Assembly: GCA_030613245.1 (NCBI GenBank) | Contig: JAUWMI010000009.1 | Span: 1 to 64,000 of the forward strand | Reading direction: 5' to 3' | Length of the DNA stretch: 64,000 nucleotides | From: Candidatus Sumerlaeota bacterium | Lineage (GTDB): Bacteria > Sumerlaeota > Sumerlaeia > MWCT01 > JAUWMI01 | Part shown: positions 2,714 to 53,395 of the stretch, in pieces | How the letters are laid out: every line of letters starts with the position of its first letter | Numbering within the stretch: position 1 is the first letter of the stretch | The notes under the pieces: generated by a model | Database searches by the model: none | Seen by the model: the letters and a program-made list of their open reading frames with translations, nothing else | What the model was told of the DNA's origin: nothing | Position numbers and translations under genes: made by a program

Positions 2714-3652
2714 TTGCAATCAGAGCCGATTATCTTTAGTGGCAGCGCGAGTAATCAGCTTGTCGAGGATATTTGCAGTTTCCTTAAGCTCCCCGAAGGT
2801 AATATCGAGACACGACAGTTTAGCGATAAGGAGACGTGGGTAAAAATCAATGAGAACGTCCGGGGAGCAGATGTCTTTGTCGTTCAGTCAACCTGCACAC
2901 CTGCAAATGATAACCTCATGGAACTTCTGTTGATTATAGACGCGCTACGCCGCGCCTCAGCCCAACGCGTTAATGCCGTTATTCCCTACTTTGGCTATGC
3001 ACGTCAGGATCGAAAAGATCAGGGCCGCGTAGCCTTGTCGGCAAAGCTGGTGGCTAACCTGATTACCACTGCTGGCGCGGAGCGCGTGCTTACGGTGGAT
3101 TTACACTCAGGCCAGATTCAAGGCTTCTTCGACATCCCTGTGGATCATCTGCTTGCTGCCCCGCTCCTCGTTGAATATGTCAAGAAGCTGAATCTCGAGA
3201 ACTATGTGGTTGTCTCGCCAGACGTCGGCAATGTCAAGCGGGCCCGCGGCTATGCTGAACGGCTTGACGCGCCGCTGGTCATTATAGACAAACGGCGACC
3301 TAGCCCCAACGTCTCAGAGGTCATGAACATTATTGGCGAGATCGCTGGCCGTAACGTCTTCATCTTTGACGATATGATTGACACAGCTGGCACCATTGTA
3401 AATGCCGCCAATGCGCTGAAAGAAAATGGAGCCAGGGATGTGTACGCTTGCTGTACGCACCCTATTTTTTCCGGCGATGCCCTGAAAATTATTGCCGAGT
3501 CTCCCCTGAAAGAGGTTATTGTTACCGACACAATCCCGTTAAGCGAAAAGAATCCTATTGGCAAAATCCGTGTGGCGTCCGTTGCTTCCTTTCTGGGCGA
3601 AGCGATTCGCCGCATTCACAACCACCAGTCTGTAAGCGCCCTGTTTTCCTGA
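2714..3652 (+). CDS. prs: Ribose-phosphate pyrophosphokinase
   Basis: 312 residues, the normal length of class I PRPP synthetase, which makes phosphoribosyl pyrophosphate from ribose 5-phosphate and ATP for nucleotide, His and Trp synthesis. Visible landmarks are the FGYARQDRK ATP-binding region, DLHSGQIQGFFDIPVDHL, and the PRPP-binding loop FIFDDMIDTAGT. The start is a TTG at 2714, placed 9 bases after AAAGGAG; no ATG fits the expected N-terminus. The prs-rplY-pth order is a common bacterial arrangement and makes the assignment secure. Confidence 0.96.
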   Translation: MQSEPIIFSGSASNQLVEDICSFLKLPEGNIETRQFSDKETWVKINENVRGADVFVVQSTCTPANDNLMELLLIIDALRRASAQRVNAVIPYFGYARQDRKDQGRVALSAKLVANLITTAGAERVLTVDLHSGQIQGFFDIPVDHLLAAPLLVEYVKKLNLENYVVVSPDVGNVKRARGYAERLDAPLVIIDKRRPSPNVSEVMNIIGEIAGRNVFIFDDMIDTAGTIVNAANALKENGARDVYACCTHPIFSGDALKIIAESPLKEVIVTDTIPLSEKNPIGKIRVASVASFLGEAIRRIHNHQSVSALFS

Positions 3653-3760
3653 CCACCGCGAATACAATGGACATAGCCTGACGGACGACCACAGGTTTTA
3701 TACGCCACAAACAGTCGCCGCGCTTTCTGCGGCGAAAAGAAATCGGAGGTCATTGCAACA

Positions 3761-4486
3761 ATGGAGAAACTCGTACTTAATGCACAGCATCGCGAGGAAA
3801 TAGGAAAGGGCTCCGGCGGTCGACTTCGCGCCCAGGGCCTGTTGCCCGCCGTTGTCTATGGCGAGAACAAGAAATCTGAACACGTGACCATTAACCGCCA
3901 TGATCTGCAACTATTGATACATCATGGCACAGGCGAAGGTACCATCATCTCGCTGAAAATCAAAGGCACAAAGGCCGCAAAAGAGCAGAAAGTGCTCATC
4001 CGCGACATTCAGAAAGACCCGGTGACGATGTACCCCATCCACGCGGATTTTTACCGTATCTCCTTGACTAAAAAACTTAAAGTTGAGGTGCCGGTCCGTG
4101 CGCTTGGAACACCCGAAGGTGTCAAGGCCGGAGGAATCCTGGAGTACCTCACCCGCACCGTTGAAGTTAAGTGTCTGCCCACCGCCATTCCCCGCAACTT
4201 TGAGGTTGACGTGAGTGAACTAGCCATCAACCACTCCGTCCACGTGAGCGACCTCAAGGTGGCTGAGGGTGTTGAAATACTCAACGATCCGGAGACCACG
4301 CTCTTCACCGTCCTGCCGCCACGCGTAGAGGAAGAAGTGGTAACTGCACCCGCTGCTGAAGAGCTGGCTGAAGGGGCCGAGCCTGAACTCATCACTCGAG
4401 AGAAGGGCGAGGAAGAGAAAGAAGAAAAGAAGGAAGAGAAAGCAGAAGAAAAACCGGAGAAAACAGAAACTAAAGAGAAAAAATAG
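3761..4486 (+). CDS. rplY: 50S ribosomal protein bL25 (long TL5/CTC form)
   Basis: 241 residues. The N-terminal 5S-rRNA-binding domain (residues about 1-95, ending with the IQKDPVTMYPIHADF signature) is followed by the beta-rich TL5 C-terminal domain (to about 185). The last 50 residues are a low-complexity Glu/Lys tail, probably disordered and lineage-specific. A GGAGG site precedes the ATG. A small GC hairpin (3715-3735) lies in the leader, between prs and this gene. Confidence 0.95.
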   Translation: MEKLVLNAQHREEIGKGSGGRLRAQGLLPAVVYGENKKSEHVTINRHDLQLLIHHGTGEGTIISLKIKGTKAAKEQKVLIRDIQKDPVTMYPIHADFYRISLTKKLKVEVPVRALGTPEGVKAGGILEYLTRTVEVKCLPTAIPRNFEVDVSELAINHSVHVSDLKVAEGVEILNDPETTLFTVLPPRVEEEVVTAPAAEELAEGAEPELITREKGEEEKEEKKEEKAEEKPEKTETKEKK

Positions 4487-13286: not shown

Positions 13287-14570
13287 ATGCGCATACCCTA
13301 TATCCTCATCATTCCCCTCTTACTTTCGTTTATCTCCTGTGAACACTTCTCCGCCCAACGACCCCAGCCACGCCAGCCTGCAGGGAAAAAGATTTACCTC
13401 TGGTTCGATGCCACAGCCAATCTCCAGCGCCTGAGTTCGCGCCATGGCGTTGCGCGCATTCTGGATCAGTGCGTGGACGCCGGTGTGGATTGCGTGATCG
13501 TGGATGTGAAGCCAATCTCCGGTCATGTACTTTACCAGAGCAAGATCGCACCCCGCCTCACAGAGTGGAAAGGCTTCGTGTATCCGCAGGACTACGACCT
13601 GCTGGCCACCGTGGTGGATGAAGGCCATCAGCGGAATCTTGAGGTATTCGCCGCCATGAACGTCTTTGCCGAAGGCCACACGCATTTCAAGATCGGCGCA
13701 GTATACACAGATCGGCCGCACTGGCAGAGCTATGACTACGTGATCCCAGAGGGCGAGACTCAGGCACGCATTGCGCCAACTACTGAAGTGACGAAAAATC
13801 CCGCAGCCTTCGTTACCCCCCTCCTGCCCGACGTGTGTAACTATGAGCTGAGCATCCTGCGCGAGATTGTGACCAGCTACGCCATTGATGGCGTCTGCCT
13901 TGATCGCGTCCGATTTGCCAGTCTGGCCGCTGATTTCAGTCCCGCCGCGCGCGCTGCATTCGAACAGTTCATCGGTCATCCTGTTGAACGCTTCCCCGAT
14001 GACATTTACCGCCTGACACAAAACCCTGAAGGGATAAAGCGCGAACCCGGACCGCTCTATGCCAAATGGCTCTTCTGGCGCGCAAGTGTCATCAAGGAGT
14101 TCTTCCTCCAGGCCCGTCTCGTCGTCAAGAACGCAAAACCCAGTGTGACCTTCGCCGATTACGTTGGCTCCTGGTACCCAAACTACTATGAAGAAGGGGT
14201 GAACTGGGCAAGCCCCAACTTCTATCCTGAAAAGACGTATGCATGGGCACCGCCTGATTACAACCAAACCGCCTATGCTGACCTTCTTGATCTCCTCTTC
14301 AGCGGTCTCTATTATTATGACGTCGAGGAGCAGGCCCCGCTAAAAAAGGGACTCCCCGCATGGCAGAGCGTTATTGGCGGAGCGCGGCTGACAAACCATG
14401 TCGTCCAATCTATTGTCCCTGTTATTGGGGGGCTCTACATTTTTCAGTACCAGAATCATCCCGATCAATTTCAAAAAGCCATGCGCGCCGCATATGAGCA
14501 TACTCAGGGACTCATGCTCTTTGACCTGGTTTACCTAGAGGAGTACGAATGGTGGGATCTTGTGAAGTAG
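13287..14570 (+). CDS. Lipoprotein with family-10-like glycoside hydrolase (GHL10/DUF187-type) barrel
   Basis: 427 residues. The N-terminus is a signal peptide with a plausible lipobox ending FISC (Cys18), so export and lipid anchoring are expected. The body looks like a TIM-barrel glycoside-hydrolase relative: YLWFDATAN, DAGVDCVIVDVKPISGHVLY, and AIDGVCLDRVRFAS, resembling uncharacterised GHL10 proteins; DR and WASPNFYPE segments are candidate active-site strands. The substrate is unknown. The stop codon is part of a dispersed palindrome (14567-14614). Confidence 0.6.
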   Translation: MRIPYILIIPLLLSFISCEHFSAQRPQPRQPAGKKIYLWFDATANLQRLSSRHGVARILDQCVDAGVDCVIVDVKPISGHVLYQSKIAPRLTEWKGFVYPQDYDLLATVVDEGHQRNLEVFAAMNVFAEGHTHFKIGAVYTDRPHWQSYDYVIPEGETQARIAPTTEVTKNPAAFVTPLLPDVCNYELSILREIVTSYAIDGVCLDRVRFASLAADFSPAARAAFEQFIGHPVERFPDDIYRLTQNPEGIKREPGPLYAKWLFWRASVIKEFFLQARLVVKNAKPSVTFADYVGSWYPNYYEEGVNWASPNFYPEKTYAWAPPDYNQTAYADLLDLLFSGLYYYDVEEQAPLKKGLPAWQSVIGGARLTNHVVQSIVPVIGGLYIFQYQNHPDQFQKAMRAAYEHTQGLMLFDLVYLEEYEWWDLVK

Positions 14571-14614
14571 GGGGCGGTTCGCGACTTGTGCGCCTCAGGC
14601 GTAACCGCCCCTAC
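14567..14614 (+). repeat. Long GTAGGGGC-family palindrome overlapping a stop codon
   Basis: A 48-base palindromic unit nearly identical (one extra G) to the unit at 20410-20456. Its second to fourth bases are the TAG that ends the preceding lipoprotein gene. Confidence 0.85.
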
Positions 14615-14615
14615 A

Positions 14616-15152
14616 TTATGGTTTATTTTGTCTAACCGGATTTTCCTCATCCTCATCCCATTTAAACGGATTATTCACAATATATTCACGAATACTGTTC
14701 AATTTCATTTCATTACGAATGATGTGTTCATAATAATTGCGCTGCCATACGGGTGCGGCCACGCTCTTGCGCATATCATTAATACGTTTTGCAGAAACGG
14801 TTTTAAATGCTCCAATTAAGCGGCCCAATGGCTTTCGTTTATCCCCTTTCGTAGGGGCGGTTCGCGCACCGCCCTTACATTGACCGGTAATTACGATAAT
14901 CCCATGTAAATGATTTGGCATTAGGATCCATTCGTCCAAATAGATATAATCGTATTGTTGGCCCAACCACCTCCAATAATCGGCAACAACCTTTCCAATC
15001 TCACTAAGCTGCACTTTGGCATCCAAAATATTCCCAAGCAAACATTCTTTGTTAAATGTACAAATAGTTACAAAATACGCCCCTCCCTGCGAATAATCAT
15101 AATTCTTCAACCTTATGGACCGCCTATGATGTTTTCCTTTATCGAACTTCAT
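14616..15152 (-). CDS. REP-associated tyrosine transposase (RAYT, IS200-like Y1/HUH)
   Basis: 178 residues. The HUH nuclease motif is MPNHLHG (His81 and His83). The candidate catalytic tyrosine is in QRNYYEHIIRN (Tyr140/141), followed by the RAYT-typical REYIVNNP. RAYTs are single-copy domesticated relatives of IS200 transposases thought to move REP palindromes. A GTAGGGGC palindrome starts 1 base beyond the stop codon, and another lies in frame within the gene (14851-14878), encoding about residues 92-102 (CKGGARTAPT). No transposon ends like IS200 are visible around it. Confidence 0.88.
   Translation of the reverse strand: MKFDKGKHHRRSIRLKNYDYSQGGAYFVTICTFNKECLLGNILDAKVQLSEIGKVVADYWRWLGQQYDYIYLDEWILMPNHLHGIIVITGQCKGGARTAPTKGDKRKPLGRLIGAFKTVSAKRINDMRKSVAAPVWQRNYYEHIIRNEMKLNSIREYIVNNPFKWDEDEENPVRQNKP
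14851..14878 (+). repeat. GTAGGGGC-family palindrome inside the RAYT gene
   Basis: Outer arms GTAGGGGCGG and CCGCCCTTAC with central TTCGCGCA. Read on the minus strand it is in frame and replaces part of the loop between the HUH motif and the tyrosine helix. Confidence 0.85.
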
Positions 15153-15191
15153 ACCAACGAAATCTCATTTGCTCGTATTACGCGAAGCGGT

Positions 15192-16358
15192 TCACGCATC
15201 GTCCCTTCTTTTCTTTTTGAATTTAATACTAGCATACAATTTATCCATATCCGCAATAAGGCGTTCGCTTGAGAAAGATTTCTTCACGCGGGAGCGACCG
15301 GCATCGCCCATACGCTGCCGCAAATCCGCATCTCCCAGCAGCCGCATAATTGCCTCTGCCAGGCCTATCGGGTCGCGCGGCTTCACCAATATTCCGGTTT
15401 CTCCGTCTACGATTGCCTCGCCATTTCCTCCAACATCGGTCGCAACGACCGGTTTTCCAGCAGCCATTGCTTCCAGAATTACGTTCGAAAATCCTTCCTC
15501 GTAAGATGCCAGTACCTGAATGTCAAAGACCCGCAGCAATGCTGGAATGTCCTGGCGACTGCCTGGAAACAGTACCTCTTTCTCCACGCCGCACTCCGCC
15601 ACCTGTGCCTTCAGCGCTTCCAGCATCCCCCCATCGCGCCCCACAAAAACAAACCGCACTCCTGGAAACCGCTCCTTGACGCGTCGTGCAGCTTCGATAA
15701 TCTCCTTATGGCCTTTGTAATGAATTAAATTCGCCACAACGCCTACAATCAGAGCATCCGGCGCCAGGCCTAGTTCGCGCCGTGTCTGCGCCGCATCCCC
15801 TTCTATCGCGAATTGAGCAACATCAACGCCATTGCAAATGAGCTTGATCTTCCGCGGGTCAATCCGCTCTCGCGCCAGCACGTCTCTCTTCACTGCCTCT
15901 GCATTAACCAGCACGACGTCGGTCCAACGATTCACCAGATTCTCCATCCACTGTTTCCATGGCTTTGCGTCTTTAAAATACCCCAGGCTCCGCCGGCTGG
16001 CAATAGTCACCGGAACCCCGGCCAGCCGCGCACAGACCACACCAAAGAGGTATGCAGTGAAAAGATAGGCGTGCACAATGTCCGGCTTCAATGTCCGGAA
16101 ATACCGAATAAGCCGCCACGTGTTTCGGAGAAGCAGAACGTAGGAAAGCGGATGGAATTTGCCATACACCAGATACAGGTTAAACACCTGCACCGGTACC
16201 TCCAGGGCTTCTACTTCCGCTGCCAGGGGGCCACGCTCAGTCATGCAGCAGATACTGAGGCGGTAGCGCGTTTTATCGAGTCCCTTGACAAGCTCGACTA
16301 TCTGGCGCTCCGACCCGCCAATGCGCAAACTACCGATAACATACGCAATTGTGATCAC
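15192..16358 (-). CDS. Glycosyltransferase family 4 (GT-B fold)
   Basis: 388 residues. The N-terminal domain opens YVIGSLRIGGSERQIVEL, typical of GT4 enzymes. The C-terminal nucleotide-sugar-binding domain has the EX7E motif in EEGFSNVILEAMAAGKPVVA, followed by TDVGGNGEAI. It probably adds a sugar to a lipid-linked surface glycan in the cytoplasm. The start is a GTG that overlaps the stop of the flippase gene by 3-4 bases (GTGA), so the two are translationally coupled. Order on this strand is acyl ligase, flippase, glycosyltransferase. Confidence 0.9.
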   Translation of the reverse strand: MITIAYVIGSLRIGGSERQIVELVKGLDKTRYRLSICCMTERGPLAAEVEALEVPVQVFNLYLVYGKFHPLSYVLLLRNTWRLIRYFRTLKPDIVHAYLFTAYLFGVVCARLAGVPVTIASRRSLGYFKDAKPWKQWMENLVNRWTDVVLVNAEAVKRDVLARERIDPRKIKLICNGVDVAQFAIEGDAAQTRRELGLAPDALIVGVVANLIHYKGHKEIIEAARRVKERFPGVRFVFVGRDGGMLEALKAQVAECGVEKEVLFPGSRQDIPALLRVFDIQVLASYEEGFSNVILEAMAAGKPVVATDVGGNGEAIVDGETGILVKPRDPIGLAEAIMRLLGDADLRQRMGDAGRSRVKKSFSSERLIADMDKLYASIKFKKKRRDDA

Positions 16359-20409: not shown

Positions 20410-20456
20410 GTAGGGGCGGTTCGCGACTTGTGCGCCTCAGGCGTAACCGCCCCTAC
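20410..20456 (+). repeat. Long GTAGGGGC-family palindrome after the DUF374 gene
   Basis: A 47-base unit almost identical to 14567-14614, beginning at the first base after the stop codon. It could fold into a strong hairpin in the mRNA 3' end. Confidence 0.85.
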
Positions 20457-42914: not shown

Positions 42915-43771
42915 CTGGACTTTAGAACTTTTGCCAAGTGACTTGAGTGCGGTGAGGCTTTAATGGCGCTATATGAAGGGCATTATCGCTCTTTGTACAG
43001 CTAAAGAAACAGCGGATGGCCTTGAGGGTCTGATTATTAACGCCACATTGTCATTTCAACTTTGCAGCTATCTATGCGCTTCAATCGTAGGGGCAATTCA
43101 TGAATTGCCCCTACAAAGCTTGCATGCGTACCATTAACTATACAAACATCAATAAGAGCGCTATGAAAGGCCTTAAGATACACGAATTATCCACGATACC
43201 TTTATTTTAGGCCGTCTTGAGGCGGTCTCTACTTTGCACCCACCTTCAGGTGCAATGAGGCTTTAATGGCGCTACATAAAGGGCATTAAGATACACGAAT
43301 TTTGAACGATACCTTTATTGTAGGCCGCCTTGAGGCGGTCTCTACTTTGCACCCACCTTCAGGTGGGGTGAAAGCGAAAGTTGGCTAAATAAGAACTAGG
43401 GCGCTTTAGCGTCGCTTATCCACCCGCGGCTTTAGCCATTGCTATCTGAGCACTGAGCCACTGCGAGAAGCCACGCTGAAGCGCGCTGTGCGAAAGAATG
43501 CTTCTTTTACCCCCCCAGCTAAAGCAGGGGGCAAAGAAGAGTCCGCCGAGGCGGACTAAAACCAAAAGGCCACATTCTCCTTTGGGCAATATGGCAAAGG
43601 GGTCATAGCTGAAAAGCCAGAGCTCTGGGGATTTCGTTCAGTTTGCATTCAGGGCTTAAAGTGAACGAAATTCACCGCGCCAAAGGCGGGTAAATCGCCT
43701 GGACGACCTTGCCTAAGGCTCACAATAGCTTTTTGGGCTTGAAGCATTCAAAAAGTTCTAAAGCTCAGTAA
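42915..43771 (+). mobile_element. MITE-like mosaic non-coding element, copy B
   Basis: An 857-base relative of 5326-5969 with the same ends: CTGGACTTTAGAACTTTTGC on the left and the inverted match AAAGTTCTAAAGCTCAGTAA on the right. Shared modules in the same order are GGCCGTCTTGAGGCGGTC, CCCACCTTCAGGTGGG, GGGCGCTTTAGCGTCGCTTA, ACGCTGAAGCGCGCT, a CCCCCAGCTAAAGCAGGGGG variant, and GTCCGCCGAGGCGGACTAAA. Copy B also carries a tandem duplication of an about 110-base module (about 43155-43370) and an insertion (about 42980-43150) that includes a GTAGGGGC palindrome. There is no coding potential for a transposase. Confidence 0.65.
43087..43114 (+). repeat. GTAGGGGC-family palindrome inside element B
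   Basis: GTAGGGGC with inner arms AATTCATGAATT and GCCCCTAC; a perfect 28-base palindrome nested in the mosaic element. Confidence 0.85.
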
Positions 43772-43820: not shown

Positions 43821-43848
43821 GTAGGGGCGTTTAATTAAACGCCCCTAC
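43821..43848 (+). repeat. GTAGGGGC-family palindrome
   Basis: Inner arms GTTTAATTAAAC; perfect 28-base palindrome 49 bases after element B. Confidence 0.85.
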
Positions 43849-53367: not shown

Positions 53368-53395
53368 GTAGGGGCGTTTAACTAAACGCCCCTAC
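53368..53395 (+). repeat. GTAGGGGC-family palindrome
   Basis: Inner arms GTTTAACTAAAC; one central base differs from the unit at 43821-43848, and both are followed downstream by an ATGCGTGGCATCCGCCTA motif. Confidence 0.85.

Follow-up and report, generated by a model that had tools for sequence, protein, structure and literature searches.

An in-frame REP-type palindrome in a RAYT gene as a probable cognate hairpin site of the transposase lineage

The window analyzed here, a stretch of 64,000 nucleotides from a Candidatus Sumerlaeota bacterium (contig JAUWMI010000009.1), contains an intact open reading frame for a protein of 178 amino acids, a RAYT or TnpAREP-like Y1 HUH nuclease (Table 1). 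The protein shows the RAYT motifs P79-N-H81-L-H83, W136-Q137, and Y157-x3-N161-P, and in a 54-row alignment (A1) the HUH histidines H81/H83 were accompanied by a single tyrosine, Y157, followed after three residues by N161-P162; by motif, Tyr157 is the predicted catalytic residue. The Pfam model Y1_Tnp matched with 25.9 bits, above its gathering threshold of 23, and the NCBIfam model REP_Tyr_transpos with 62.7 bits, below its cut-off of 80. The predicted structure (pLDDT 83) has the TnpAREP fold, its top match by Z (VIA-align) being 4er8_A, a TnpAREP with bound REP hairpin (Z 12.5, rmsd 3.0, 131 residues aligned). Thg1 and ribosomal protein S6 in the fold library gave Z values under 8 and were set aside as sharing the common fold only.

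Table 1. Coordinates of the RAYT gene and of REP-type palindromes in the window
Feature	Positions	Strand	Basis or remarks
RAYT / TnpAREP-like Y1 HUH nuclease gene	14616-15152	-	ORF, Pfam/NCBIfam matches, model vs 4er8_A
In-frame REP-type palindrome	14851-14878		codes residues 92-101; tip GGTTCG; 12/14 pairs kept
Downstream flanking REP-type unit, longer (47-nt class)	14567-14614		sequence, fold, genomic copies
Upstream flanking unit, weak and decayed	15181-15208		18/28 consensus match
Unit sharing the arms of the downstream flanking unit	20410-20456		
Genomic palindrome, same outer stem, tip AATTCATGAATT	43087-43114		
Genomic palindrome, same outer stem, tip GTTTAATTAAAC	43821-43848		
Genomic palindrome, same outer stem, tip GTTTAACTAAAC	53368-53395		

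A preliminary description of this DNA had reported, inside the RAYT gene, an in-frame palindrome of the RAYT's own type, and this was confirmed. The palindrome, an imperfect one of the GTAGGGGC type, lies between the HUH strand (residues 81 to 88 of the model) and the next helix (109 to 128); it reads GTAGGGGCGGTTCGCGCACCGCCCTTAC on the plus strand and CKGGARTAPT in the gene, and the frame is unbroken. All but two of its pairs are Watson-Crick, the GTAG foot is intact on the plus strand and reads GTAA on the coding strand, and the z value of the DNA fold is -2.85 for the plus and -2.35 for the minus strand. With a mean pLDDT of 51, residues 91 to 100 are predicted to be flexible; modeling, which had been proposed as a check, recovered the fold of the protein and was uninformative for the insert itself. 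The estimate of about 10 extra codons is plausible in the light of an aligned paralogue without the insert (L221), but the frame of L221 contains a TGA. Taken alone, the window copy is weak and would fail a test against chance, as its inverted-repeat score of 8 was reached by 38 of 300 variants in which the loop had been recoded synonymously. Having two broken pairs and having lost one of two GTAG feet, it is decaying, and as an ageing example it is a poorer specimen for tests than the intact copies.

A second unit just past the gene end, likewise announced in the preliminary description, is separated from the RAYT stop codon (14616-14618) by a single base (14615), and similar units occur in the same genome at C1:20410, C47, C49, and C92. 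Its GTAG foot forms the TAG stop (14568-14570) of a convergent plus-strand ORF (13287-14570). The consensus match of the upstream unit was equalled by 5 of 1000 shuffles; flanking GTAG-footed palindromes repeated in the genome, a trait of RAYTs, are represented by the downstream unit and only weakly by the upstream one. In the host genome (4.29 Mb, 97 contigs) we counted 110 exact GTAGGGGC-N2..32-GCCCCTAC palindromes, and a reversed control gave none. Among 39 other genomes of the phylum, 37 had no such palindrome and two had one each; a match to the N-terminal half of the RAYT (E <= 1e-10) was found in one of the 39, a genome without exact palindromes. The host-genome palindromes agree in outer stem and feet and differ in the six base pairs at their center (the tip), for which GGTTCG, GTTTAA, AATTCA, GTATTG, AGGTTT, and others occur. 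These 110 palindromes, the excess of the 16-mer GTAGGGGCGGTTCGCG (4 matches in the window with at most 3 mismatches, 0.41 expected), and perfect palindrome versions at the same codons in homologues show that the window palindrome, as a member of a family, is not a product of chance. The homologues also ruled out a one-off accident in the window.

RAYT-like matches were found at five places in the host genome (the window, C50 twice, C65, and C74), and the four outside the window all have an inverted repeat with a score of at least 10 in the same loop. Those at C50:51500-54800 (L225) are tandem RAYT genes with similar N-termini and different loop palindromes (VGATLVVA...GTRPAPT and KGVLQYAPT). 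The gene at C65:11500-13600 (L226) has two loop palindromes with the tips GTTCTATTGAAC and GTTTATTTAAAC. The tip GTTTAATTAAAC, common among the genomic palindromes listed, would introduce a stop codon in either of the usable frames, and the two L226 tips look like stop-free variants of it.

To see how widespread the loop palindrome is, we used the best 80 of at least 579 relatives, with one of the query peptides falling within the loop. L053, which has a broken frame and, as taken, lacks the HUH/Y motif, was left out, giving 80 loops from 79 homologues and the window. An inverted repeat scoring at least 10 was present in 74 of the 80 loops (74/79 homologues), compared with 2/80 control gene parts upstream and 2/80 downstream. 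When each loop was recoded synonymously 300 times, none of the recodings reached the loop score in 54 of the 80 genes, and at most 15 of the 300 did so in 77, the exceptions being L041, L073, and the window. Fifty of the same genomes were then searched with the N-terminal 88 residues only, which answers the bias from the loop peptide in part only because the same genomes were used. This search gave 79 places, 78 of them with a usable ORF (L223, without a HUH ORF, was left out) and 27 new. With the loop taken to the gene end in new paralogues lacking the end motif, 22 of the 27 had a strong repeat and 22 had a foot; the five without a foot were L152 (decayed), L216 and L219 (more distant), and L220 and L221 (without insert).

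The site of the palindrome is homologous among the relatives of the window gene: it lies 29 nt after the HUH motif in 10 of 14 window-type genes, has the same frame in all 14, and is followed by a conserved LGRLIGAFK-like stretch. Across the relatives the loop measures 47 to 115 amino acids. In L079, L070, L086, L018, and L203 each loop holds at least two palindrome units, with a longer protein and an unbroken frame. In the 79 loci the density of perfect-foot palindromes was 2.86 per kb in the RAYT loop, 0.027 in other ORF proxies, and 0.23 elsewhere, which corresponds to an about 100-fold higher density in the loop than in other ORF proxies.

These data bear on the main rival explanation, the one taken by Quentin et al. 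(2018), according to which the RAYT copies REPs nearby, only in-frame copies in a tolerant peripheral loop of its own gene survive, and similarity reflects recent copying, without selection. The flexibility of the loop fits this neutral recurrent insertion, and so do the wide range of loop lengths, the decayed copies (window, L152), and the relatives without an insert; loops with two or more units are what repeated insertion would be expected to give. The near-universal presence of the palindrome among relatives, its constant spacing and frame among window-type genes, and its density compared with other ORF proxies speak against it.

The reading frame bears on whether DNA or peptide is the conserved feature. 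Of the 80 genes, 44 have the 5' foot in frame 0, 28 in frame 1, and one in frame 2, where GTAG would give a TAG stop. Because the foot is read in two frames, the peptides VGAGLKPAPT and CRGGSRTAPT represent one DNA stem read in two ways. When genes sharing a palindrome peptide were compared, codons at shared residues (families of at least four codons) were identical in 996 of 1065 cases (94%) inside the palindrome and in 2336 of 7233 (32%) outside, the motifs having been searched over the ORF to the next stop, so that this count includes L015 (DSRIAP) and probably L036 and L052 (TGRSP), which seem to be read-through into the flanking unit and not loop. In a set of 12 genes from the window's group, mean protein identity outside the palindrome was 58%, and codon identity was 498/498 inside and 866/2858 outside; with L027 added, the inside value was 534/546. 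Twelve of these genes can be assigned to a named phylum, and they cover seven phyla. Homologues with the same residues in non-palindromic DNA, which the preliminary description had named as evidence against itself, did not occur: 12 of 13 homologues with GGSRTAP have identical codons, and the 13th, L027, uses different codons and still forms a 9-bp stem. For 70 elements of 28 nt, 383 of 420 tip-pair cells were Watson-Crick (at most 205 in 2000 shuffles), and for 29 elements of 29 nt, 142 of 174 (shuffle maximum 104), a test that is inflated by the relatedness of the genes. Compensatory changes within the same peptide amounted to only four both-sided cases, counted per gene pair in few genes, and are too few to lean on. 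Outer-stem changes matched on the opposite arm were seen in L025, L082, and L090 (e.g. GTAAGGGC...GCCCTTAC in L090).

The reading in two frames and the codon conservation indicate that it is the DNA, and not the peptide, that persists, and show that the DNA is conserved beyond the needs of the protein. A function of the peptide was rejected on the same grounds. The view that selection acts on an ordinary protein loop whose DNA is palindromic by accident could draw on G94 and P100, which are at least 90% conserved in alignment A1, but both residues follow from GGGC/GCCC in either frame. As one place encodes unrelated peptides, codons are conserved far beyond residues, and predicted order is low, this view is already contradicted, and we regard it as extremely improbable. 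The suggestion of the preliminary description that the inserted peptide may alter activity found no support, given the unrelated peptides from two frames and the predicted flexibility of the segment.

The strong inverted repeat in the coding region of 74 of the 80 genes would also suit selection of an mRNA hairpin that limits translation or is bound by the RAYT protein for autoregulation. Such a hairpin would be expected to leave a wobble signature, an excess of G-T among stem mismatches on the coding strand; this was looked for among the few mismatches and not found (G-T 11, A-C 14, small numbers). The GTAG foot and the identity of tips across genomes point to a DNA site, and HUH proteins are established to act on single-stranded DNA (PMC8266576). 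An mRNA hairpin is accordingly an improbable explanation, and the earlier idea that it limits translation was not borne out, small as these numbers are.

A link between the in-gene palindrome and other palindromes was provided by the tips. In loci with a foot in both loop and flanks, the in-gene 6-nt tip equalled a tip in the 400-bp flanks in 40 of 68 cases, whereas the average over 2000 shuffles was 3.3 and the highest value 10; in the other 28, the window included, the tips differed by this exact 6-mer test. The palindrome thus shares its tip with flanking palindromes in most comparable loci. For the genome as a whole, six of the visible tip classes were counted in 50 genomes, which had been selected beforehand from the 80 according to tip class. 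Of 28 cognate genome-tip cells, 19 had exact copies at a distance of more than 1 kb (mean 6.9 and maximum 13 in 5000 permutations of genomes); so did 46 of 272 non-cognate cells, counted irrespective of other RAYTs in those genomes. The in-gene tip therefore predicts palindromes that the host genome tends to hold. In L017 and L075 no copy is farther than 1 kb from the gene; in L017 three identical palindromes upstream of, inside, and downstream of the RAYT (3365-4153) are the only exact copies of the genome. In 7 of the 28 genomes there was no exact copy beyond the in-gene one, and in one of these, L028, no flanking palindrome was found within 500 bp either. This absence cuts two ways: there is no visible donor, yet the genomes are mostly drafts, and as many of them are draft MAGs, a missing copy may be an assembly gap.

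On a quick tree of the protein core (loop excluded, 101 rows; 57 of 98 inner branches open), 17 tip classes required 33 changes for 81 rows, against at least 56 in 200 shuffles; the classes were set by peptide patterns, and the 20 of 101 rows in no class were left out. Phylum required 43 changes for 69 rows, against a shuffle mean of 47.9. Since the tip follows the core tree and phylum does not, the type of palindrome stays with the enzyme while enzymes switch host phylum, i.e. palindrome and transposase core are inherited together across phyla. The concordance of tip and core is explained by co-inheritance alone and is no proof that the protein reads the tip.

The tips also bear on neutral insertion: flanking copies with the same tip agree with it, and the agreement of tip and core tree and the genomes without another exact copy, including L028 without a flanking one, count against it. 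Near-universality, position, tree, and density weaken the neutral view, but flanking copies may renew the in-gene one, and conservation could stem from re-insertion or conversion by such copies and not from selection. We consider neutral insertion less likely than not, while keeping it as the main competitor. The explanation that we favor, with a probability of about 0.55, regards the insert as a cognate hairpin site of the REP type that, as a DNA feature, belongs to the transposase lineage.

As a cognate site, the in-gene hairpin, with its GTAG foot and its stem or tip, would be recognized by the Y1 HUH nuclease when the gene is single-stranded; both recognition and cleavage by these proteins are predictions from sequence. 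The code may tolerate a palindrome in the flexible stretch that joins the HUH strand to the next helix. A copy inside the reading frame is inseparable from the enzyme, and a gene that is transferred would therefore carry a usable substrate along. The flanking and dispersed REPs may have been seeded from the in-gene copy or matched against it; alternatively, the in-gene copy may be kept matched to the flanking copies by the enzyme's own activity. In either case, the in-gene palindrome would be an inherited or in situ renewed cognate REP that links enzyme and substrate. More tentatively, and at somewhat less than even odds, we propose a self-addressed family, in which each gene encodes its own hairpin in frame, selection at the level of single-stranded DNA and not of protein holds the hairpin across phyla, and enzyme and substrate form a one-piece unit seeding matching REPs after horizontal transfer. 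If the substrate is locked in the gene of the enzyme, the question of how RAYTs retain matching REPs when they change genomes becomes testable: the in-gene tip names that substrate, and specificity could be read from sequence. The family is also a clear case of a coding segment conserved for its DNA, which can mislead protein annotation and tests of selection.

In-frame REPs have been in print since 2018, when Quentin et al. (PMC6006769) described REPs located between HuH and Y as unique to TnpAY1 subclass 2.4, which equals Bertels group 4, and placed the inserts in a peripheral region with likely little impact. The preliminary description had called the gene a target or carrier: it is a carrier of its own palindrome, whereas the notion of a one-off insertion understates a family-wide feature already contained in that paper. 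The window family resembles subclass 2.4 in the in-frame REP, the 'double foot' GT[AG]G...C[TC]AC REPs, the WQ and YIxNNP motifs, and the distribution over many phyla. The window gene, with NHLH, WQ, and YIVNNP, differs in its degenerate copy and in a leucine absent from the printed NH[IFV]H, and is most likely a member of the subclass. Among the hits recognized as relevant in a literature search of limited scope, the phenomenon appeared only in this paper, the accessible part of which holds no test of codon-level conservation, of two frames, of tip-core co-inheritance, or of genome-wide cognates of the in-gene copy; the same search found codon-level conservation, two-frame reading, and tip-core co-inheritance nowhere in print. 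As far as searched, the repeats in 74/79 homologues and 22/27 paralogues, the two-frame and codon result, the tip-core tree, and the sharing of tips with flanking and distant palindromes are new. TnpAREP proteins of E. coli and S. maltophilia are described as cutting single-stranded GTAG-footed hairpins at CT, and two TnpAREP groups as having co-evolved with their REPs (PMC8266576). The E. coli TnpAREP and REPtron (4ER8) agree with the window gene in fold, in HUH with one Tyr, and in GTAG-footed flanking hairpins, whereas the window family adds a palindrome inside the coding sequence, and its palindromes have two feet and are almost perfect. Rickettsia palindromic elements and intragenic REPs (Di Nocera et al. 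2013, PMC3733652) are likewise palindromic repeats read in frame; they are described in many unrelated genes, whereas the palindromes of the 79 loci are concentrated in one loop of the enzyme's own gene (2.86 versus 0.027 per kb).
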